Shown one piece after another: positions 1 through 23,601 of a stretch of 23,676 bases of DNA. The stretch comes from Desulfonatronum sp. GTDB lineage: Bacteria > Desulfobacterota > Desulfovibrionia > Desulfovibrionales > Desulfonatronaceae. Numbering within the stretch: the stretch's first letter is position 1; every line of letters begins with the position of its first letter. The translations under genes and the position numbers were made by a program. The DNA lies in the NCBI GenBank assembly GCA_007127655.1, contig SKYX01000418.1:1-23676 (forward strand), given 5' to 3'. The notes below the pieces were generated by a model. The model was not told where the DNA came from, ran no database searches, and worked only from the letters and a program-made list of their open reading frames with translations.

Positions 1-705
1 GAACGCGCCAAGGACGGCCAGGTGCGAAAGAATCGGACCCCGGAAGGCGAAGGCCTCGCCGCGCAGGATGCTGTTCATGTAATAGAAGGCCGCGACAATG
101 ATCGCCACGAGAACGGTCAGGCCCACCAACCAGGAGCGGAAAAATTCCAGAGCCGGCAAGCTGAAGATGTAAAAGGAATAGTCGTTGTTGAAGATCGGGT
201 CGGCCTCGCCGAAAGGCACCTGGTGCAGGTAGCGCAGGGCGACGTTCCACTCACCAGCCGGTCCGGAGGCCAGCAGAAATGCACCCAGGGCCACAACGCC
301 GCTGGCGAGCCAGATCAGCACGCTCCGGGCGGAGTCGTAGATCTGTGGCGGCAACTTGTGCCCGCCCCGGGGAAACATCCGCCCGGTTATCCGGACCACC
401 GCGATCAGATTGGGGACGGCCAGGGCCAGGAAGACGAGCACCGCTCCCACATACAACCAAACTTTGGTGGTCACGACCTTCCAAAGCACACTTTGATGGT
501 CCAGGGAACTGTACCAGAGCCAGTCCGTGTAAAAGCCCTGGGCCCAATTCAGTCCGGACCACAGGATGATCAACGCCAAACCAAGCAGGCCCAACCGCAG
601 GAAGCGATGGAACTTGGAAAAATCCATCTCCTCGACCTTGAACTGCGGAAATGGATCCCGCGGGTCGTATGGGCCTTGGGAACCGGGGCCAAAAGAAAAC
701 AGCAT
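1..705 (-). CDS. UPF0182 family membrane protein, N-terminal part (cut by window edge)
   Basis: The reading frame runs from an ATG at 705 to the window edge without a stop, giving 235 residues of a protein that is usually about 900 residues long. An AAGGAGG ribosome binding site lies 7-8 bases before the ATG. I see about four hydrophobic helices (roughly residues 36-55, 79-105, 127-147 and 189-210). The stretch YTDWLWYSSLDHQSVLWK (59-76) and the segment DPIFNNDYSFYIFSLPALEFF (169-189) are typical of UPF0182 (COG1615), a family of inner-membrane proteins with a large extracytoplasmic domain. Its biochemical function is not established. The gene is divergent from thiL, with about 250 bases between the starts. 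The family call rests on remembered signature segments, and the C-terminal two thirds are unseen. Confidence 0.82.
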   Translation of the reverse strand, partial: MLFSFGPGSQGPYDPRDPFPQFKVEEMDFSKFHRFLRLGLLGLALIILWSGLNWAQGFYTDWLWYSSLDHQSVLWKVVTTKVWLYVGAVLVFLALAVPNLIAVVRITGRMFPRGGHKLPPQIYDSARSVLIWLASGVVALGAFLLASGPAGEWNVALRYLHQVPFGEADPIFNNDYSFYIFSLPALEFFRSWLVGLTVLVAIIVAAFYYMNSILRGEAFAFRGPILSHLAVLGAF

Positions 706-953
706 CGAGACAACCTCCTTGACAGGGGGGATGAAAAATTAGGCCAAAATCACGAATGAAAAGCCGCGAGGCTTGAAACACGAATCCGAGAACAGCGGAA
801 AAAAATCCCTTATTCCTTCTTATGAAGAAAAGGTCAACTACTTGGATAGGGACTCAAAGAGTGTGCTCGTTGCTTTTTGGAGCGCTTCGAGCGAAAAGAA
901 TGTCGCGGATCGACGAACCGAACTATGCCCACACCAAGCCACCCCTCCATCGC
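706..953. other. Divergent intergenic region between the UPF0182 gene and thiL
   Basis: This roughly 250-base gap should hold the promoters of both divergent genes. A TTGACA hexamer occurs on the plus strand just upstream of position 725, but I see no good -10 partner at 16-18 bases. Two in-frame ATGs upstream of the thiL start preferred here (822 and 900) lie in this stretch. Neither has a good ribosome binding site. I see no hairpin, repeat or riboswitch-like structure. Confidence 0.4.
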
Positions 954-9175: not shown

Positions 9176-11629
9176 TCATAGCTCATCCTCCGTGCCGTTA
9201 TCCAGCAACGCCTTCTCGTCCGCATCGACGCGGTCGAAGCCAACCACCATGATGTCCGGATCCATGCGCACCAGGGTCACGCCCTGGGCGTCACGGCCCA
9301 CGCGGCTGATTCCGGCCACGTTCATCCGAATAATCTTTCCGGCGCTGGTCAGGATCAGCAGATCGTCTTCGGATTCGACCAACACTGATCCGATCACGGG
9401 TCCTGTTCTGGGCGTCACGCGCATGTTGATCACCCCTTTCCCGCCACGGGATTGGCTGCGGTAGTTCTCCAGCAGAGTGCGCTTTCCAAAGCCGTTGGCC
9501 GAAACGGTCAGCACTTCCTGGCGCTGATCGTCGTCCGTGACAACGCAGGACACCACCTGATCACCGTAGTTTAAATCCATCCCCTTAACCCCGGCCGTGG
9601 CTCGACCAGTGGAGCGAATATCGGAGCAGGAAAAGCGGATGGATTTACCGTCCCGGCTGATCAGGACGACTTCCGCCGTGGAGGAAATCTCCCGCACAGT
9701 GATCAATTCGTCTTCCGGATGGAGATTGACCGCCTTCAGGCCGCTTTGGCGGCAGTTGACGTAAAGCTGAGCCTGAGAGCGCTTCACAACGCCCCGCTTA
9801 GTGGCGAACAAAAAGTTCTTGTCCGTGGCGAAATCCTTGATGGTCATGGCCGTGGCGATGAATTCGTCCTTGTCCAGAGGCAGCAGGTTGGAGGCGTGAA
9901 TGCCCCGGGCCGTGCGCGAACCCTCGGGGATGTTGTAAGCCTTGATCTTGTACATCCGGCCCTTATTGGTGAACAGCAGGATATAGTTGTGGTTCGTGGT
10001 GGTGAACATCTGGGAAATGATGTCCTCGGAAATAGTGGAGGCCCCATAAATGCCGCGACCGCCGCGCTTCTGCTGCTGATAGGTATCCATAGGCGTACGT
10101 TTGATGTACCCGCGTTGGGACAGAGTGATCACCACTTCCGTGTCGCCTACCAGATCTTCCATGTTGATGCTGTTGGCGTCTTCCTCAACGATCACGGACC
10201 GGCGTGGTGTGGCGTAGATTTTCTTAATTTCCACCAGTTCTTCGCGGATCACCTGGATCAAAACCTCCACATTCTGCAGGATGCTCTTCAGATATTCGAT
10301 CCGTTTGATCAGTTCTTGGTACTCGGCCAACAGTTTGTCCCGCTCCAGGTTGGTCAGACGCTGCAAACGCATATCCAAAATGGCCTGACTCTGAAGATCC
10401 GTAAAGGCAAAGCGGGTGATTAGTTTCTGTTTGGCCTCCGCGGGCGTCTTGGAGGACTTGATCAGCTCGATGACCTCGTCGATATTCTCCAGGGCGATCT
10501 TCAACCCTTCCAAAATGTGCGCTCGCTGTTCGGCTTTGTTCAGGTCATAGCGGGTCCGATTCAGGACCACTTCCTTGCGGTGTTCGATGAACAGTTCCAA
10601 AACGTCTTTCAGCTTCAAAAGCTGAGGCCTGTTGTGGACCACCGCCAGGGTGTTGATGTGGTACCATGACTCCAGGGGAGTAAATTTATACAAGGAATTG
10701 ATCACCACTTCCGGGATGGCGTTTTTCTTCAGATCCATGACGATCCGAATGCCGTTGCGATCGGATTCGTCTCGCAGGTCGCTGATCCCCTCCACCTTTT
10801 TTTCATGGACGATCTGGGCGATCTTCTCCACAAGGCTGGCCTTGTTCAAGGCATAGGGGATCTCGGTGATCACGATGGACTCGGCCTGTTTGGAGCGCTC
10901 CTCGATCTCTACCTTGCCCCGGACCTTGATGGAGCCTTTGCCGGTCTTGTAGGCGTCGATGATCCCGTGTCGGCCGTAAATGAATCCGCTGGTGGGAAAG
11001 TCCGGACCTTTAATGCATTCCAGCAGGTCCGCAACCTCGGCTTCGGGTTTGCTGAGCAACAGCAGCAGACCGTCGATCAACTCCCCGAGATTGTGTGGCG
11101 GAATGTTCGTAGCCATGCCCACCGCGATCCCGGACGAACCGTTGAGTAGCAGATTGGGCACCTTGGTGGGCAGAATTTCCGGCTCCTGCAAGGTGTTGTC
11201 GTAGTTGGGCCGGAAGGGAACGGTTTCCTTGTCGATGTCCTGCAAGAATTCCGACGTCAGCCTGGCCATGCGCACTTCCGTATACCGCATGGCCGCCGGA
11301 GCGTCGCCGTCCAGGGACCCGAAGTTGCCTTGCCCGTCCACCAGGGGTTCGCGCATGGAAAAATCCTGGGCCATGCGGACCATGGCGTCGTACACCGCGC
11401 TGTCGCCGTGGGGGTGATACTTACCGATCACGTCACCGACGATGCGAGCCGATTTTTTGTACGCCCGGTTGTAGGTGTTCCCCAGGTCATGCATGGCGAA
11501 CAGAATTCGCCGATGCACCGGCTTGAGACCGTCCCGGACATCGGGAATGGCCCGGCCGATAATCACGCTCAGAGCGTACTCCAAATAGGAGCGCTGCATT
11601 TCCTCTTCAATGAATATGTTGTTCTTCAC
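9176..11629 (-). CDS. gyrA: DNA gyrase subunit A
   Basis: GyrA is the DNA breakage-reunion subunit of the A2B2 gyrase that introduces negative supercoils. The 817-residue product begins at a GTG (11627-11629) with GGAG about 6 bases upstream. The breakage domain is intact: [21 protein letters not shown] (21-41), [12 protein letters not shown], and the catalytic tyrosine 116 in AAMRYTEVR. The quinolone-determining positions equivalent to E. coli Ser83 and Asp87 are Ser77 and Asp81, the susceptible type. The C-terminal wrapping domain has a GyrA box of the form QQKRGGRG, which separates it from ParC. A later QSRGGKG lies in a neighbouring blade. It is the last gene of the dnaN-gyrB-gyrA block and lies 76 bases after gyrB. 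Confidence 0.97.
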
Positions 11630-11640
11630 GATGGCTCCGG

Positions 11641-11660
11641 AAAAATGATCGGCTGATCAT
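11641..11660 (-). promoter_or_regulatory. Small hairpin with T-run between gyrB and gyrA
   Basis: Read on the minus strand, ATGATC-AGCC-GATCAT forms a 6-bp stem with a 4-base loop and is followed by TTTTT, immediately before the gyrA ribosome binding site. It looks like a weak intrinsic terminator or attenuator inside the operon that could lower gyrA relative to gyrB. The stem is short, so a functional role is only inferred. Confidence 0.45.
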
Positions 11661-11705
11661 AAATCAACCGTTCTGAACAAATGGCCTCATAAATAGCCAA
11701 AAAAA

Positions 11706-14108
<2,403 letters not shown>

Positions 14109-14144
14109 TCATTCCTTTCAAAAAAAAATGATCAAATCCGAAAT

Positions 14145-15302
14145 CTACATGTCCGTATCCGTGTACACCACTTCGTCGGATATCTGCATAGGCATGATTA
14201 ACACTTTATAGCCCGGATCATTGACGTCTTCGATAAAGCACGGTCCTTCGGGGCTGGTAAAGTGGAAATGGAGCTGGTCCGACTCAAAGTGAGAAAGAAT
14301 TTCAATCATATCTCGTGTTGGAAAGGCGATCTTTTTCAAATTGCCATGAAACACGACATCCAAAAATTCCTTGGCTTCGCCTTTTTCATCGGATTGTACA
14401 TCCATCTGCACCATGCCCTCGCTGAACTCAAAAAAAGTGCACATGCTGTTATCCGTATTGAAGATCAGAATCCGGTCCAATGCGTCCACCAATCCCCGTC
14501 TATCCACGTCCATCCCGCTGGGATCCGGCGAAGCGTGTTTGGCCAGCAACTGGTTGTAGTCCGGGTAGTCGTACAAGGAAAGAGGAAGGCTGATGTTCTC
14601 TTTGAGATCCCAGGAACGGCAATATAATCGGTTATTCTGGATATTCAGTTCAATTTCCTTCAAGGGAATCATGCGCTTCAGTTCGTAGAGATACTTCTTG
14701 CTTATCAAAATCCCCTGTTCCGGCAACAGGTTTTGCAGTCCTTCGTGCTCCAGTTTGCATAGAGCCAACTGATGGCCGTTCAGACCACAAAAGTCGATTT
14801 TTTGATCCTTGGCCGCGTACTTCAGGAGCATGCAGTTGAAGGCCTGCAAGGTGTCGTCGTCGCTGACGGAGTAGGAAACCTTCTCGATGATTCTCGAGAG
14901 AGTCTCCCCGGACAGAAAGACCGCGTTTTCCTCAGGAAAGACGGAGAGGGGCTGGAACCAGTAATTCTCATTGATGGGAAGGACATATTTGCGCTTGTTC
15001 TGCTTGACCACCAGATTGTTGGCTTTTTCATCCACAATAAATTGCAACTCCCCGGGGTGCAGTTTGCGGATCAAATCGTATAGATGGCGCCCATTGACGC
15101 CTACAAGACCGTCTTCTTTGACATCTGGGGAAAAAACGCCGAAAAATTCTATGTTTGAATCCGTGGCCATGATCCGCAATTGGTCGTTTTCGACTTTGAG
15201 CCACGTTGACCGGAGGTACACGGCTCCGGTCTTCACGCTGGTGATCTGGGCGGCTTGTTGGAGGGCGGGGAGAATTTCTTCTCTCTGTATAAGAAATTTC
15301 AT
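14145..15302 (-). CDS. dnaN: DNA polymerase III beta subunit (sliding clamp)
   Basis: DnaN forms the ring-shaped dimer that tethers DNA polymerase III and many repair proteins to DNA. The 385-residue product starts MKFLIQREEILPALQQAAQ, the usual opening, with GAGGAG 7 bases before the ATG. The three repeated clamp domains can be followed. The first has GVNGRHLYDLIRKL, and the middle has LSGETLSRIIEKVSYSVSDDDT followed by FCGLNGHQLALCKLE. The last has FPTRDMIEILSHF and ends GYKVLIMPMQISDE, the normal C-terminal M-P-M/M-R-L-type strand. Being first of dnaN-gyrB-gyrA fits the classical replication cluster, but dnaA is not upstream. The promoter probably lies in the AT-rich stretch 15335-15380. 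Confidence 0.95.
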   Translation of the reverse strand: MKFLIQREEILPALQQAAQITSVKTGAVYLRSTWLKVENDQLRIMATDSNIEFFGVFSPDVKEDGLVGVNGRHLYDLIRKLHPGELQFIVDEKANNLVVKQNKRKYVLPINENYWFQPLSVFPEENAVFLSGETLSRIIEKVSYSVSDDDTLQAFNCMLLKYAAKDQKIDFCGLNGHQLALCKLEHEGLQNLLPEQGILISKKYLYELKRMIPLKEIELNIQNNRLYCRSWDLKENISLPLSLYDYPDYNQLLAKHASPDPSGMDVDRRGLVDALDRILIFNTDNSMCTFFEFSEGMVQMDVQSDEKGEAKEFLDVVFHGNLKKIAFPTRDMIEILSHFESDQLHFHFTSPEGPCFIEDVNDPGYKVLIMPMQISDEVVYTDTDM

Positions 15303-17264: not shown

Positions 17265-17360
17265 GCAGTTTGTCTTGACCAGAGAACAAGAAAGACTGTT
17301 TCAATCTTGAACCGTATTTTCACCGTCTTGTTCAGCAGAGAGTATTTTATCCGAGAAAAT

Positions 17361-19217
17361 ATGTCCAAATCCGTGTTTTCATCATCCATTCAGCAGCAAC
17401 TTAACCTCGTTCTGGAATGCGTGCCCAGGGTACATCGGGCCTTGGGCCGGGAGGATGCCGTTCTGAGGGGGGTGCCCGGGTGGTCCGAGCTGGTGGGCAG
17501 GCCTGGGCGGATCATTGTCCATGAGGGGCGGATATGTCTGGTTTGCGTGCTCTTCGGGCCCAGCGGGGCCGGGAAGAGTACGATTTTTCGGCTGTTGACC
17601 GGAATTCCCGTGCCGGCCGGTGAAACGCGGCGGCCGATGACCTTCAACTGTGCCGCGGCCGTGCCGGAGACGCTGCGGGACGTCCTGGACCTGGATGAAC
17701 TCTTTCCCAGTTACCGGATGCATCCGTTGATGGAATTGGACGTGCTCAGCGATCGGCAGCGATCGGCGACGGATCTTTTTTTTCAGTTTTACCAGGACCA
17801 GATACCAGAGCCGGTTGCGGAATCAGCGTGGCTGATCCTGGTGGACGTGCCGGATTTCAACACAGTGGAACAGGCCAACAGGACTCGGGCCGAGGCCATG
17901 CTTGGGCGGGCGGAAACCGTGATCTTCACGGTCTATCCTGAGGCGTACAAGGACGCCGCGGTAATGGAGCAGCTTCGAGCCGCGGCTGGGCGGGCCGGAC
18001 ATCTCGTCTATCTGATAACCAAGCTTTCCGCTTCGAATGAGGCAGAGGCGGCCCGGACAATCTGGGAGGATGTGCTCCATCACGTCCGCGACGCTCCGGA
18101 TTTTCAAACCCCACGCGGAGACGGGCTGCGGATCGGCGAATTTCTGGAACAGGCGAACGTCTATTATGCTCCGCGCGACATTTCACCGAGTATGGAAGAC
18201 ATCCGTCCATTGAACCCGGATGCACCGGATTTCTGGTCTCTGATCAAGGGCCGGGACGCTGTGGAGGTGTACTGGTCCAATCTGCTGGGAGTCCTAGACA
18301 AGGGATTGATAGCGGCCGACATGTTGGCTCGGGAGGCGTCGGCTCAATGTGAGGAGTTGCGTCGGCGCCTGGAGACCTCGGATCAGCGGATGGTCGAAGT
18401 CAGTGAACGAATCGCCGGATCCCAGTTTCCGGCCGGGGAACTGGTGGAACTGATTATTGCCGTGGTCAAGGAAAGTCGCCCGGGATGGTTGCGGATGATC
18501 ACCCTCCCCGTGTCCCAGGCTGCGGGCATGCTGCTGTCCGTGCGCACGTTGTTCAAAAGATTTAGCAAGACCGAGCGTCGGACTGTGCTGCGGGATCGCC
18601 GACAACTGGAACGACGACGATTGGAAGAAGCCGTGGACGTGCTTCTAGATGAGTGGAGACGGGATTTTTCCACGGAGGCAGACCTGTTCACCACCCAGAG
18701 GTGCCGGGAAGCGGCCCGGCGTCTTCAGGAGCATGAGCCCCCCCCGGTGCGCGACGATTGGAAAGAGGCACTACGAGCCGACGTGCGGGACTGGTCGCAA
18801 CGCCATCCCTGGTACGGCTCTCTTGTGGGAACGTTGTCCGAGATGCTGGTGTTGCTGGGCGGCGCAGCCCTGGTTTTGGATTTGGCCGTGTCCGGTGGCA
18901 TTTTCGGGGCGGTGGGCCAGATTGGGGTGGCCGGGGCCGCGGGAGCCGGGAGTCTGGGTGCCGGAACGGTGTTGAAGATGTTCGAGGAACTTAAACTCAA
19001 GGATATCCTGGAAAAGGCCGATGCCAAATGGCGGGCCCAGCGTCGGGATGAACTGGAGGCGCATTTGCGTGAGCATCTTGCGGAGCCACTTTTCAGGAGA
19101 AAGTGGCGAGAACGGATTCGCGCCCTGGATGAGGCCGACCCTGAGGCCTGCCTGGCCGCTGTGGAGACGATTCGGGCAAGGTGGCCGAAGCAACGTGATT
19201 CAGGAGGCCCCTCATGA
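17361..19217 (+). CDS. Dynamin-like GTPase, first of a tandem pair
   Basis: The product (618 residues from the ATG at 17361; a TTG at 17307 is also in frame, and neither has a good ribosome binding site) looks like a bacterial dynamin-like protein. The G1 P-loop is GPSGAGKST (66-74). The G3 position reads DVPDF (162-166), with Asp where most GTPases have Gly. The G4 position reads TKLS (220-223), lacking the guanine-reading Asp. Charged, probably coiled-coil helices follow (about 320-350 and 400-455). A long hydrophobic, Gly/Ala-rich segment at about 487-540 could form a membrane-inserting hairpin, and a charged tail ends the protein. It overlaps the next GTPase gene by ATGA, so the two are made together and probably work as a heteromer. 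The substrate membrane and process are unknown. Nucleotide specificity is uncertain because G4 is degenerate. Confidence 0.72.
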   Translation: MSKSVFSSSIQQQLNLVLECVPRVHRALGREDAVLRGVPGWSELVGRPGRIIVHEGRICLVCVLFGPSGAGKSTIFRLLTGIPVPAGETRRPMTFNCAAAVPETLRDVLDLDELFPSYRMHPLMELDVLSDRQRSATDLFFQFYQDQIPEPVAESAWLILVDVPDFNTVEQANRTRAEAMLGRAETVIFTVYPEAYKDAAVMEQLRAAAGRAGHLVYLITKLSASNEAEAARTIWEDVLHHVRDAPDFQTPRGDGLRIGEFLEQANVYYAPRDISPSMEDIRPLNPDAPDFWSLIKGRDAVEVYWSNLLGVLDKGLIAADMLAREASAQCEELRRRLETSDQRMVEVSERIAGSQFPAGELVELIIAVVKESRPGWLRMITLPVSQAAGMLLSVRTLFKRFSKTERRTVLRDRRQLERRRLEEAVDVLLDEWRRDFSTEADLFTTQRCREAARRLQEHEPPPVRDDWKEALRADVRDWSQRHPWYGSLVGTLSEMLVLLGGAALVLDLAVSGGIFGAVGQIGVAGAAGAGSLGAGTVLKMFEELKLKDILEKADAKWRAQRRDELEAHLREHLAEPLFRRKWRERIRALDEADPEACLAAVETIRARWPKQRDSGGPS

Positions 19218-21103
19218 CCGCTCCGCGATTTTTTCCCCAGCGCATAACCGCCAGGATTGAAGAATTGATCCAGGAGGCGCAGCGCTTCGACCGCCTGCCC
19301 GCCGCCCAGACCATGGCCCTGCGCCTGGAGCGGGTTCTGGGCGTTATGGATGACCGGACAGGCTTGGATGCCGGTCTTGGCCGCCCGGTCGTCATCGTGC
19401 TCTTGGGCGGGACCGGAGTGGGCAAGTCCGAGCTGTTCAACGCTCTGCTGAACAAGCCCGGCCTCAGTCCGACCTCGTCCACTATTCGTCCCAAGACCAC
19501 TTGCGCCCATGTCGCGGTGGCGCCGGCGGATAAACAGCATCTTACATTTCTCGATGAAGCTGACGTGGTCACCACCGATCACCTGTTGTCCGGAACGGCC
19601 CTGATCGACGCTCCGGATGTGGACAGCACCGAGTCCGTTCATTTGGAGCGCACCCGCCGGTTGGTGGAGCGGGCGGACATCGTGGTCTACGTCGGCAGTC
19701 CGGACAAGCGGGCCAACTTCAGCGTCCAGGAAGAGGTCCGGCGGTGGGCCGCCCGTAAGCGGTGGTTTTTCGTGCTGAACAAGCTGGACCAGATACCGGA
19801 ACGGGATCGGGAGACCGTGTGCGCGGATTTTATGGGCCGTGTGCGGGAATTAGGCTTTGACGTGGACCAGGACGGTTTTTTCGCGGTCAGCGCGGTTGCG
19901 GCGCAATCCGCAACACAAACTGCCGCGGATGGATTGAACGAGCGCCTCGAACGATTGCGCGCCGTCCTGTTCGCCTACCGGGCCAGGGAGCAAGTCCAGG
20001 CTTTGCGAACCGAGGATGTCTTTAATCAGGTCCGCCATGCCCTTTCCGGATCGGTCCGCCAAGACCTGGATAGATTGCACCGGTCTTTGTCGGCCCATGA
20101 GCAGGAGTTGGATGGACGGGTGCGCGAGGTTTTTCTCAAGGCCCTGTCTACGCCCCAGAGCCAAGACACGTTGCGCCGGATTATTCGGGAACAGGCCTGG
20201 CGGGTCGCACCGAGCCGGGTAGGCGGTTTTCTGGCCTTGCCGGTCTGGGTGCGCGGACGGCTGGCTTTTTCCGGCCTAGCCTACCACCTTGCCAGGATGT
20301 CCACGGGCGGTCCGTCCCTGACACGGATGCTCCGGGCCGGATGGCACGCGGCCAAGGCCGCCTGGCAGGGTATTTTGCCCATGCGGACCATTTTGCAAGG
20401 ATTTTCCGCCGAAGAAGAGCGTCGTCTGGCCGAAATAGCCCAGGATGCACGAAGAACCTTGCAGGATCTCGGATTGGACCGGCTGGACGGCGCAAAACCA
20501 TCAGCTTTTGATCCACCGACGTCAACGCCTGAAGCGGAGCAGGCGCTTTGGGCGACCCGGCTTCTGAATCAAAGCCTGAACGTGCTGCGCACACAAGGTG
20601 TGTTGCCCCGAAAGTCGGAACATTCCGATCAGGATCAGCGCACCCGGGAAATTTTTCAGGAGCGCCTGGAACAGGCCGTACTCTCCAGCGCCGGTCTGCT
20701 GACCGCCCAGCGCCTGGGGCTGGCGCACACCCTGGTTGGCAACCTCCTGCCGTTCCTGGTCTTCGGCCACGCCTCGGTACGTCTGGTTTCCGGCTGGCTG
20801 GCCGGGGACTGGCTGCCGTTTGATTTCTACCTGACCGCGGTGGCGGTGTTCCTGATCAGCCTGGTCCCAGGATACCTGCTCGTCTCCGTCTCCCTGACCC
20901 GCTTCGGAAACCTCCCCGCACCGAGCCAACTGGTCCAGGCCCTGGACGCCCCAGGAGAAACCGAACCCCTGCGCAGGGTGCGCCTGGATGTCGAAGGATT
21001 GCTGGATCGGGTCCGTGATCTGGAAGACGCGCTGCGGGTAAGCACGGAAGTGCTGCAACAGGAACTGGATCCGTCGCGGTTTGGGGCAGCGATTCGGGGT
21101 TGA
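19214..21103 (+). CDS. Dynamin-like / 50S-ribosome-binding-type membrane GTPase, second of a tandem pair
   Basis: This 629-residue protein has a better-kept GTPase domain than its upstream partner: G1 GGTGVGKSE (65-73), a likely G2 threonine around residues 89-97 (RPKTTCAHV), and G4 NKLD (189-192). G3 reads DAPDVDS (132-138), again with Asp in place of the usual Gly. A long helical middle follows. Two strongly hydrophobic segments at about 502-565 (including VAVFLISLVPGYLLVSVSL) look like a membrane hairpin, and the C-terminal helix (about 585-620) is coiled-coil-like. The ATG overlaps the previous stop as ATGA and has GGAGG upstream, showing translational coupling. The two-GTPase organisation recalls bacterial dynamin pairs. 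The family assignment rests on architecture, since overall sequence resemblance between the two proteins is low. Confidence 0.75.
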   Translation: MTAPRFFPQRITARIEELIQEAQRFDRLPAAQTMALRLERVLGVMDDRTGLDAGLGRPVVIVLLGGTGVGKSELFNALLNKPGLSPTSSTIRPKTTCAHVAVAPADKQHLTFLDEADVVTTDHLLSGTALIDAPDVDSTESVHLERTRRLVERADIVVYVGSPDKRANFSVQEEVRRWAARKRWFFVLNKLDQIPERDRETVCADFMGRVRELGFDVDQDGFFAVSAVAAQSATQTAADGLNERLERLRAVLFAYRAREQVQALRTEDVFNQVRHALSGSVRQDLDRLHRSLSAHEQELDGRVREVFLKALSTPQSQDTLRRIIREQAWRVAPSRVGGFLALPVWVRGRLAFSGLAYHLARMSTGGPSLTRMLRAGWHAAKAAWQGILPMRTILQGFSAEEERRLAEIAQDARRTLQDLGLDRLDGAKPSAFDPPTSTPEAEQALWATRLLNQSLNVLRTQGVLPRKSEHSDQDQRTREIFQERLEQAVLSSAGLLTAQRLGLAHTLVGNLLPFLVFGHASVRLVSGWLAGDWLPFDFYLTAVAVFLISLVPGYLLVSVSLTRFGNLPAPSQLVQALDAPGETEPLRRVRLDVEGLLDRVRDLEDALRVSTEVLQQELDPSRFGAAIRG

Positions 21104-21135: not shown

Positions 21136-21336
21136 ATGATTACAGCACATTCCGTTGAACAAGCCGTACTGCGGCTTCCACAGGAAGAATTTATCAAGTT
21201 TCGTGATTGGTTTCTTCGCTTCGAATCGGACGCATGGGACAAGCAGATTGAGGGGGATGCCGCCTTTGGGAAACTTGATGCGTTGGCTGAAGAAGCGCTT
21301 GCTGAGTATCAGAGTGGTTCCTTCACCGAACCATGA
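21136..21336 (+). CDS. Small antitoxin-like protein (toxin partner apparently lost)
   Basis: This 66-residue acidic protein starts at an ATG with GGGAG about 7 bases upstream. Its N-terminal half SVEQAVLRLPQEEFIKFRDWF and the stretch WDKQIEGDAAFGKLDALAEEALAEY match my memory of small antitoxins that precede RelE/ParE-like toxins, which typically read WDxQIExDxxxGKLDxLxEEALxxY. In such pairs the antitoxin blocks the toxin and represses the operon. Here the downstream frame that begins in the ATGA overlap (21333) ends after 13 codons, so the toxin seems truncated. Possible functions for a solitary antitoxin are protection against a related toxin elsewhere, or none. The family match is by pattern only. 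Confidence 0.65.
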   Translation: MITAHSVEQAVLRLPQEEFIKFRDWFLRFESDAWDKQIEGDAAFGKLDALAEEALAEYQSGSFTEP

Positions 21337-21374
21337 GACATTTCACATATAAAATCAAGGTTTTAGCGCATTGA
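21333..21374 (+). pseudogene. Probable remnant of the toxin gene (13 codons)
   Basis: An ATG overlaps the antitoxin stop (ATGA), exactly where the toxin of such modules normally starts. The frame encodes only MRHFTYKIKVLAH before TGA. The first residues, M-R/K-H-F-T, are like the start of the expected toxin, after which the frame is unrelated. The TGA shares its last base with the ATG of the protease gene. I infer a deletion that removed the rest of the toxin, possibly when the protease gene was joined. Confidence 0.4.
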
Positions 21375-22624
21375 TGCAAACTCTTATTCTCATCGTGGTT
21401 CTGGCCGCCCTGCTCGCCAAGGTTATTGCGGAAGCCTGGTTGATTCTATTGAACATGCGTGAGGCGAGACGTCGGCGGGATGCGCCGCCAAAGGCCTTGC
21501 GCGAGGTGATGGACGAGGCGACGTACCGGAAGTCCGTGGAATACACCCTGGCCAAAAGCCGGTTCGGGCTGTTCGGCGAAGTGTACGGGGCGGTAATCCT
21601 GGTGGTGGTGCTTTTTACCGGGCTGTTGCCCTGGGCATACGATCTGATCGGCGGCGGGCCCTCGGCTTCGGTCTGGCGGGAGGGGGTGTATCTGATTGCC
21701 GTGATGCTGGTACTTTCCCTGCCCGGCTTGCCCCTGGACCATCATGCCCAGTTTCGGCTGGAAGAGCGGTTCGGATTCAACAACAGTACCTTGCGGTTGT
21801 GGGTCACGGACAAGATCAAGGGGCTGATTTTAGGCGTAATCATCGCCCTGCCCCTGCTGGCCGGGATTCTATTCTTGATCGACTTGATCGGGCCGTGGTG
21901 GTGGGTCTGGGCCTTTGTGGTTTTTTTCGTCTTTCAACTGGTGATGATGGTCCTGTATCCCATGCTGATCCTGCCCTGGTTCAACACCCTAACCCCGCTG
22001 CCGGAGGGCGAACTGCGGCAACGGCTGATGGCCCTGGCAGACCGAACCGGGTTCAAGGCCAAGACCATCCAGGTCATGGACGGCAGTAAGCGGTCCGGCC
22101 ATTCCAACGCCTTTTTTACCGGGTTTGGACGGTTCCGGCGAATCGTGCTCTTCGACACCCTGATTGAGCAGTTGTCGGAGGAGGAGTTGGAAGCCGTCCT
22201 GGCTCATGAAATCGGCCACTACAAGCTCGGGCATATTCCGAAAATGCTGACCTTGTCCGCTGGCTTCGGGCTGGCCTCCTTCGCGTTACTGGCTTGGCTG
22301 CTGCAGAATCCGACGTTCATCGAGGCGTTTGGATTTCGTTTTGCGGACAGCGGTCCGGGACCGGCCTTTCTGCTCTTCGCCCTGCTGGCCGGGCTGTTCA
22401 CGTTCTGGCTTTCCCCGCTGATGAATCGCCTTTCCCGCAAACACGAATATCAGGCGGATCGCTTTGCCCGGAAAAGCGGCCCGGGTGCCGACCCGATGAT
22501 GAGCGCCCTACGCAAACTCAGCGAGAAGAACCTTTCCAATCTGACCCCTCACCCCTTGTACAGCGCATTTCACTATTCCCACCCCACGCTGCTGGAGCGG
22601 GAGGCGGCGCTGTCCGGTTCTTAA
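21374..22624 (+). CDS. M48 family (Ste24-type) membrane zinc metalloprotease
   Basis: This 416-residue integral membrane protease belongs to the Ste24/CAAX-protease-like M48 group, which cuts membrane-associated or misfolded proteins. It starts with a hydrophobic helix, has the M48 N-terminal domain (including LPLDHHAQFRLEERFGFNNST), and helices around residues 65-90, 150-175 and 175-200. The zinc site is HEIGH (278-282), with the third ligand Glu358 in EYQADRFA. SGHSNAFFTGFG and the C-terminal HPLYSAFHYSHPTLLEREAAL are also typical. Bacteria do not generally prenylate proteins at CAAX boxes, so the real substrates are probably other membrane proteins. The ATG at 21374 overlaps the toxin stub's stop. 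The gene runs tail-to-tail into the AT-rich glycosyltransferase gene, with overlapping stop codons. Confidence 0.93.
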   Translation: MQTLILIVVLAALLAKVIAEAWLILLNMREARRRRDAPPKALREVMDEATYRKSVEYTLAKSRFGLFGEVYGAVILVVVLFTGLLPWAYDLIGGGPSASVWREGVYLIAVMLVLSLPGLPLDHHAQFRLEERFGFNNSTLRLWVTDKIKGLILGVIIALPLLAGILFLIDLIGPWWWVWAFVVFFVFQLVMMVLYPMLILPWFNTLTPLPEGELRQRLMALADRTGFKAKTIQVMDGSKRSGHSNAFFTGFGRFRRIVLFDTLIEQLSEEELEAVLAHEIGHYKLGHIPKMLTLSAGFGLASFALLAWLLQNPTFIEAFGFRFADSGPGPAFLLFALLAGLFTFWLSPLMNRLSRKHEYQADRFARKSGPGADPMMSALRKLSEKNLSNLTPHPLYSAFHYSHPTLLEREAALSGS

Positions 22625-23601
22625 TGAAGGTGTTTTTGAATTGATCTTGCAATGTACAAATTTAAATTTTTCTTCGAAAAAACAGTGTGCCATGTTCTAC
22701 ACGATTTTTCGCACATTTCTGCGATTTGATCTGATTGAATATTGCTGAGACGATGGTTTATGATTTCACTTATGTTTGGTATTTCGTCAATTTCAATAAA
22801 GAAACAAAATTCAGAGTAATTTACTATGTCGCTTCTAGGAAGGTTTGATATATTCTTTATCAATATTGGTATTCTTCCGTAATACATTGTTTCAAATAAT
22901 CGAACAGAAAGTGGCCCAACCCCAGGTAAGCACAAAACGGTGTATGATTTTTTTGTAGCTTCCCTGAAAATCAATTTTCTCTTTGTTTTTTCCTCTTTTG
23001 AAAGTAATGGGTTAATGTAAAAACCATTTTTAATGGTTCCTTCTATTGCGTCAATGTAAGATTTGATTCTTTTATCTAGATATATTGCTTTTGTTATATA
23101 TTTTCTGATATCATTGTTTATTGTTCCAACAAACGATGTATGGTATTTTATATTTCTTAAGTTGAACGTATATTTGTCATTTTTAACATGTTCTGGTATG
23201 TCATACCATATTTGGTATGTAGAATTTGTATTTATGTTGTATGGAATGCTTACTTTAAAAAAAATGGATGGCATGTCAATCAATTTCTGTTTGTCGCCAT
23301 GATCAAAAAAAACGTGCCTAGCTTCGTTTTCTCTATAGTAAGGGAGCAAGCTTAAATATTTTTTAACTTTGCTAGATTCTTGACTGTCAGTTAGCCATCC
23401 TATGTCATATGGGAATACAAAAAAATCTGCTTTATTTGGATCGTTTGTTTTGTTTATAGCAGAGTCTTTTGAAGAACGCCATATATCTTTTTTTATATCA
23501 ATAAACCCATTGCTATTTAGGTTGGAAACGTAGTCTTTCATTTCCTTGCAAATACTGAAGTGAATATTTTCAGTATATTCAAAGTAGTTATATTTTTTCA
23601 T
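22621..23601 (-). CDS. Exostosin-like family glycosyltransferase
   Basis: This 326-residue protein resembles the exostosin (GT47-like) family of glycosyltransferases, which add sugars to polysaccharides. The pattern is ADFFVFPYD (58-66), then HVFFDHGD (96-103), HTSFVGTI (154-161), and LCLPGVGPLSVRLFETMYYGRIPILI (223-248). In the last, the Glu237 region and the G-x-I-P-I-L segment are the usual sugar-nucleotide-binding end. It is cytoplasmic, with no signal peptide or membrane helix visible. Base composition is very AT-rich, unlike every neighbour, which points to horizontal transfer. It most likely takes part in capsule, O-antigen or flagellar glycan synthesis. No good ribosome binding site is seen. 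Its start overlaps the end of the upstream gene, suggesting coupled translation. The exact sugar and linkage are unknown. Confidence 0.8.
   Translation of the reverse strand: MKKYNYFEYTENIHFSICKEMKDYVSNLNSNGFIDIKKDIWRSSKDSAINKTNDPNKADFFVFPYDIGWLTDSQESSKVKKYLSLLPYYRENEARHVFFDHGDKQKLIDMPSIFFKVSIPYNINTNSTYQIWYDIPEHVKNDKYTFNLRNIKYHTSFVGTINNDIRKYITKAIYLDKRIKSYIDAIEGTIKNGFYINPLLSKEEKTKRKLIFREATKKSYTVLCLPGVGPLSVRLFETMYYGRIPILIKNISNLPRSDIVNYSEFCFFIEIDEIPNISEIINHRLSNIQSDQIAEMCEKSCRTWHTVFSKKNLNLYIARSIQKHLH

Follow-up and report, generated by a model that had tools for sequence, protein, structure and literature searches.

Sequence comparisons lead us to favour, with moderate confidence, a reading in which two adjacent genes of a Desulfonatronum sp. 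encode a hetero-oligomeric, membrane-associated machine that is related to dynamin-like proteins of bacteria, its downstream subunit being GTP-specific and its upstream one degenerate. The genes, which we call P1 and P2, lie on the plus strand of contig SKYX01000418.1 (assembly GCA_007127655.1), in the 23,676-nucleotide (nt) stretch of DNA that was analysed, hereafter the window. P1 (17361..19217; 618 amino acids, aa) is a P-loop protein with D-x-P-D in its G3 motif and a G4 motif that lacks aspartate; P2 (19214..21103; 629 aa) is a GTPase with D-x-P-D in G3 and an intact NKxD G4. The original prediction for this locus stated that bacterial dynamins occur as side-by-side pairs, and two papers state that most of their genes are paired (PMC6104087, PMC4159319). 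Such pairing is therefore already known, and it is the asymmetry of the motifs that is new: one half lacks the guanine-selecting residue in most sampled lineages, the other mostly keeps it, and the G3 glycine is replaced in both. The reason for the pairing of dynamin-like genes in bacteria is still under study, and the P1/P2 family makes the division of labour within such a pair directly testable, through the ligand of P1 and through the capacity of P1 to switch P2 on.

Two unlike proteins encoded in tandem

The two genes had been described from the window alone as overlapping by ATGA, and both their coordinates and the overlap were confirmed. The stop codon of P1 and the start codon of P2 share these nucleotides (19214..19217, plus strand), and AGGAGG sits just ahead of the P2 ATG. 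P1 was read from the ATG at 17361, an alternative TTG at 17307 giving 636 aa. The 4-nt overlap recurs in six of the seven pair-bearing members of the genus, the other (G004) having a 79-nt gap. Both frames are kept at 48-88% identity in six other genomes of the genus and at 30-33% in planctomycetes, and these are therefore genes, not chance open reading frames (ORFs). The two proteins were expected to be strongly divergent, and so they proved: in the window's own genome P1 and P2 gave no mutual match at E 1e-3, and they cross-matched each other's orthologues in genus-mates in the GTPase domain only (26-28% identity, E 6e-4 to 1e-3).

Inspection of the motifs upheld part of the claim that both proteins are GTPases with an N-terminal nucleotide-binding domain. 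Each has a P-loop, but P1 lacks the G4 aspartate of a normal GTPase, the residue that selects guanine in P-loop GTPases. In P1 the G1 motif reads GPSGAGKST (residues 66-74; 17556..17582, plus strand, as are all motifs given here), the G3 variant DVPDFNT (D162-V-P-D; 17844..17864), and the degenerate G4 TKLS, with the aspartate absent (18018..18029). The corresponding motifs of P2 are GGTGVGKSE (residues 65-73; 19406..19432), DAPDVDS (D132-A-P-D; 19607..19627) and NKLD (19778..19789). The hydrophobic C-terminal segment described for each protein was recovered as well, at residues 496-514 of P1 (18846..18902; mean hydropathy 2.07) and 543-561 of P2 (20840..20896; mean 2.28), where hydropathy marks candidate membrane segments. 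Among Pfam models P2 passed MMR_HSR1 (32.4 bits, cut-off 21.9), and ABC_tran fell 0.3 bits short of its cut-off in P1, via the P-loop; NCBIfam held nothing near cut-off for either protein.

A wider family with a fixed gene order

Comparison of P1 and P2 with 61 genomes (the window's own, 7 of the same genus and 53 of the same order) found full-length P1 and P2 together, adjacent, in seven of the eight genomes of the genus; G002 (1.6 Mb, 90% complete) had neither. None of the 53 other genomes of the order gave a full-length match to either protein, partial matches outside the genus being found in G009, G028, G036 and G048. A search of 297 genomes of the class with an alignment of P2 agreed, with full-length P2 in 7/8 genus genomes and 0/289 others and partial matches in G009, G036 and G048. 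The suggested conservation of the gene pair across Desulfovibrionales was thus not borne out, full-length P2 having turned up, among these 297 genomes, in the window's genus only. G009, from another family of the same order, has a distant tandem pair. A scan of genome contigs with P2 returned six loci, in two metagenome-assembled genomes of Desulfovibrionales (one of them named Desulfonatronum) and four of planctomycetes, the latter at 30-35% identity. A relative of P1 lies directly 5' of P2 on all four planctomycete contigs, overlapping it by 8 nt in two; the contig start truncates P1 in L038, and P2 of L039 runs off its contig.

Beyond the class, the P2 alignment (A3) matched at least 79 of 392 Planctomycetota genomes and at least 45 of 395 Desulfobacterota genomes at E 1e-10, both counts being lower bounds because at most three candidates were scored per genome. 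The matches in at least three of these 45 genomes (G036, G048, G063) are to dynamin-like proteins of a different, single-gene kind. We assembled 72 loci: 40 stretches from 39 of the 79 Planctomycetota genomes, 20 from as many of the 45 Desulfobacterota genomes, G009, the 7 of the genus and the 4 planctomycete loci. The stretches were mostly, not strictly, the top-scoring ones; L026 and L027 were excluded for carrying dynamin-like genes of the other kind, and since all loci were picked via P2 matches, genomes with the upstream member alone would be missed. Genes were labelled upstream (UP) or downstream (DN) by profiles A6 and A5, respectively. The search for a published account covered the open PMC literature, with bioRxiv and most subscription journals outside its scope, and among the matches listed no paper dealt with the P1/P2 family.

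The order of the two genes is fixed. UP is followed by DN in 59 of the 72 loci and DN by UP in none, while 11 loci have DN only and 2 UP only, so that homologues which are always single, the outcome named beforehand as speaking against a pair, did not occur. Five of the 13 unpaired loci are at contig ends (L039, L090, L102, L113, L149), and eight have no partner within the fetched stretch (L105, L111, L112, L117, L157, L159, L160, L161). In all nine genomes examined with an unpaired DN, those of the eight partnerless loci and L113, an UP member is encoded elsewhere in the genome. These nine unlinked proteins all favour the UP profile, with margins of 32 to 434 bits; eight of them lack the G4 aspartate and one has it (read by eye). 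Loci outside the training of the profiles, several of which are near-copies of training rows, behave in the same way, with 36 UP-DN, 11 DN only and 2 UP only among 49, and with each pair member scoring at least 46 bits better against the profile of its own class.

Two oddities were seen among these loci. Three unlinked UP members from one Desulfobacterota family (L171, L172, L173) have the UP profile ahead by only 32-53 bits and are possibly a subgroup of their own. At L089, L118, L121 and L125 the DN frames are 801-1167 aa long and overlap UP in another frame by 490-1168 nt; these are probably over-extended starts, although frameshifts or fusions may also account for them.

Motif asymmetry and parallel descent

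The P-loop is kept in both UP and DN, and it is in G4 that the two halves differ. Scoring covered 129 of 131 rows (the cut UP of L038 and the DN of L090 were dropped for want of a recognisable core). By alignment column, the G4 aspartate is present in 5/60 UP members versus 59/69 DN members, and the full [NT]KxD motif in 4/60 versus 44/69. The aspartate is absent from UP and present in DN throughout the window's genus (0/7 and 7/7) and the close planctomycetes (0/5 and 5/5), and nearly so in the other Desulfobacterota (2/16 and 21/21) and other planctomycetes (2/17 and 16/16). Among the 58 loci at which both members were scored, 44 have the aspartate in DN and not in UP. By hydropathy, 44/58 UP and 67/69 DN members have a hydrophobic stretch after the P-loop, the last such stretch standing at a median 0.80 (UP) and 0.83 (DN) of the way to the C-terminus.

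The GTPase-domain tree (104 sequences, 14 loci of near-copies having been removed from the 129 rows; its bootstrap had not fully settled) sets UP and DN on the two sides of one branch (99/99), a split that rejects a recent duplication as the origin of P1 and P2. Distances among UP members correlate with those among DN members over 47 loci (Mantel r 0.89; none of 2000 permutations as high), a correlation that could arise from shared species history alone. Together with the single gene order at 59/72 loci, the tree and the correlation bear out the proposal that P1 and P2 are specialised halves of a single conserved unit.

An alignment of joined UP and DN sequences (47 loci, 11 near-copies dropped) placed the window's genus with the planctomycete pairs L036 and L086 (100/99) and L087 (100/100), and the other Desulfobacterota pairs in a separate group (100/96). 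Vertical inheritance with those other Desulfobacterota pairs was rejected by an approximately unbiased test (p 6e-11), for a group that was named after the first tree had been seen. The simplest reading would be that the window's genus received both genes together by transfer, with a direction that we infer from an unrooted tree; hidden paralogy with losses is possible instead. Spread on plasmids was rejected, P2 having no match in 72,556 plasmid records in a single-sequence search, which is less sensitive than profiles. Planctomycetota are known for unusual internal membranes. A bolder proposal, that this is a large and apparently unnamed clade of dynamin-like GTPase pairs in which UP has switched to ATP or any purine nucleotide, so that two nucleotides gate one membrane-remodelling machine, and that the genus acquired its pair from a planctomycete lineage, seems to us distinctly improbable as a whole.

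Relation to dynamin-like proteins

The claim of a dynamin-like identity is borne out for the GTPase domain only. Searched against solved structures, the DN profile put Nostoc BDLP1 (PDB 2J68/2J69/2W6D) at the top (E 6e-12), followed by Irgb10, Der and others. The likeness to BDLP1 is weak: the match consists of a 16-bit piece in the GTPase and a 27-bit piece, with a bias of 8, in the helical part. BDLP1 shares the general layout of P1 and P2, having its GTPase at the N-terminus and a hydrophobic part towards the C-terminus. In hhalign comparisons with 25 dynamin-like proteins of the same class, DN scored 99.8% and UP 99.3% over the GTPase region, versus 1.8% and 3.8% in controls with reversed rows. 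This comparison set was found with a query that itself matches 5OWV, LeoA, IniA and BDLP1. These profiles establish homology of the P1/P2 family to bacterial dynamin-like proteins for the GTPase domain only. P1 and P2, whose GTPase domains are related to those of dynamin-like proteins, may well work in the manner of such a pair, but we do not file them as a canonical dynamin because the D-x-x-G feature was looked for and not found.

The nearest parallel is the Campylobacter jejuni pair Cj-DLP1/Cj-DLP2 (PDB 5OWV), likewise two adjacent and unlike dynamin-like genes, and the DN profile matches 5owv_A at E 4e-6. The Campylobacter study reports that the single proteins hydrolyse little GTP while the complex is active, and that mutation of either P-loop reduces turnover to a negligible level, a hetero-GTPase dimer being needed (PMC6104087). 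The P1/P2 family differs from Cj-DLP1/2 in its D-x-P-D G3 and in an upstream member without the G4 aspartate. Profiles of the LeoBC/LeoA proteins of enterotoxigenic Escherichia coli match weakly, the best fit being LeoBC for P1 and LeoA for P2, and the order of P1 and P2 agrees with that of LeoBC and LeoA in the Leo report (PMC4159319). In LeoABC the upstream dynamin-like protein is divided between two genes, whereas P1 is unsplit, a single ORF in all seven pair-bearing members of the genus. The Leo report gives switch 2 of LeoB as D-x-x-G (PMC4159319), where P1 and P2 carry D-x-P-D.

Within the order, dynamin-like proteins encoded by single genes (G048 and its relatives) also match the UP and DN profiles in their GTPase regions. 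They differ in having a GEVKxGKS P-loop in 24/25 and D-T-P-G as G3 at the first pattern match in 18/25; their G4 is non-canonical too, a loose pattern giving [NT]QAD in 12/25 and nothing in 13/25. No second gene of this type was seen in either of the stretches that were read (L026, L027).

Proposed mechanism and alternatives

Both P-loops are kept and the G4 aspartate is lost upstream, which suggests a GTP-specific P2 completed by a degenerate P1 head. Taking Cj-DLP1/2 as a template, we propose that P2 would be the GTP-specific engine, and that P1, which keeps its P-loop and the G3 aspartate without the G4 aspartate that selects guanine, probably pairs with the GTPase domain of P2, which it would activate or regulate while itself binding nucleotides loosely or without specificity. 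GTP would drive the two heads together, and their pairing would then act on the membrane gripped by the hydrophobic stretches, the likeliest task being tethering, fusion or repair of the inner membrane. Physical interaction of P1 with P2, membrane remodelling and the roles of the subunits are what we infer.

Several observations weigh against this reading. G3 is D-x-P-D in 60/60 UP and 69/69 DN members, by a scoring pattern that would equally accept D-x-P-G, and the D-x-x-G of dynamins was not found. P2 scores 16.3 against Pfam Dynamin_N, under the cut-off of 27, and P1 has no Pfam model at cut-off, Dynamin_N not being listed for it at all. The Dynamin_N cut-off is passed by 5/10 relatives; it is also exceeded by five reading frames of the window's own genome and by frames in 13/14 control genomes, and the own-genome matches were therefore not used as evidence. 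Among solved structures Der and Era are the nearest to the UP profile, other P-loop proteins match as well, and no dynamin stands among the best 60 of its 91 matches; the profile-profile matches stop soon after the GTPase region. No hydrophobic stretch was found in 14/58 UP members at the threshold used. Nor is the motif asymmetry universal: in one planctomycete clade, marked by a [TS]H motif, the G4 aspartate occurs in 1/15 UP and 10/20 DN members, contradicting such a rule, and among the 58 loci with both members scored it is present in neither at 9, in both at 4 and in UP only at 1.

Many of these points would suit a paired membrane-associated TRAFAC GTPase, of Toc/AIG1/septin-like or Era/Der-like type, that lacks a dynamin stalk and dimerises via its GTPase domains. 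The Der and Era matches of UP, the absence of D-x-x-G from 129/129 rows and the failure of P2 to pass Dynamin_N while passing MMR_HSR1 all speak for such a protein. Yet the DN profile puts BDLP1 first and extends into its residues 232-525, albeit through a composition-biased match, and the length of the proteins, the C-terminal hydrophobic stretch and the paired genes agree with dynamin-like proteins; we regard a stalkless TRAFAC pair as unlikely. That P1 and P2 might be independent homomeric GTPases, merely co-transcribed, sits poorly with the fixed UP-DN order, the presence of UP even where it is unlinked (9/9), the correlated divergence of the two members and the asymmetric loss of the G4 aspartate, and we give it little credence. 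A smaller chance still attaches to an anti-phage or other stress-defence pair, kin to the defence candidates LeoA/LeoBC. PADLOC models fit that idea to a degree, P2 preferring LeoA (46.9 bits, E 5e-13) over LeoBC and P1 preferring LeoBC (26.9 bits, E 6e-7) over LeoA, and among 22 DN rows at E 1e-3, 19 match LeoA and 17 LeoBC. These matches are weak, partial and not class-specific, however (11 of 20 UP rows match LeoBC and 11 LeoA), and may reflect common ancestry only. Unlike a defence island, moreover, the pair is present in 7/8 genomes of the genus in largely kept surroundings, with dnaN nearby in 5/7 and a peptidase gene downstream in 6/7.

Genes around the pair

The peptidase gene (21371..22624, plus strand) encodes an M48 peptidase with a CAAX-protease-like membrane N-terminus, and is a neighbour in this genus only, outside the core unit. 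It lies 3' of the pair at a distance of 25-92 nt in five of the six genus members that have it there, and of 267 nt in the window. Among the clustered genus loci it was present in 4/5, or 6/7 counting the window and L031. Mitochondrial OMA1 and OPA1 offer a speculative parallel for a protease next to dynamin-like proteins. A 66-aa ORF (21136-21336, plus strand), present in one copy in the genome, fills the 267-nt gap between P2 and the M48 gene; it may resemble an antitoxin, but NCBIfam gave nothing and plasmids one unannotated match. On the other side, an aminotransferase gene is directly 5' of the pair in 4/7 genus genomes and about 2.5 kb 5' in a fifth.

No third conserved partner gene was found in 50 clustered loci, of which the 30 largest gene groups were inspected. 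The GTPases link 49 of these loci, and the next largest groups link 8 close relatives; a few small groups join distant loci (for example three genus loci with L087, or L039 with L116) in no pattern. In one planctomycete clade (L095, L098, L099, L108, L110, L115, L119, L123), where both members lack the G4 aspartate or nearly so, genes resembling those for ribosomal protein S2, elongation factor Ts and UppP, named by eye from protein starts, lie close to the pair. Predicted promoters in the window (2, versus 1.9 in shuffles) and terminators (5 versus 7.6) do not stand out. A 245-aa ORF (22-759, plus strand) has zero Pfam or NCBIfam matches. The gyrA, gyrB and dnaN genes stand together on the minus strand (9176-15302), and an Exostosin GT47-like protein (Pfam E 8.8e-15) is encoded at 22621-23601 on the minus strand, its gene converging on the M48 gene with a 4-nt overlap.

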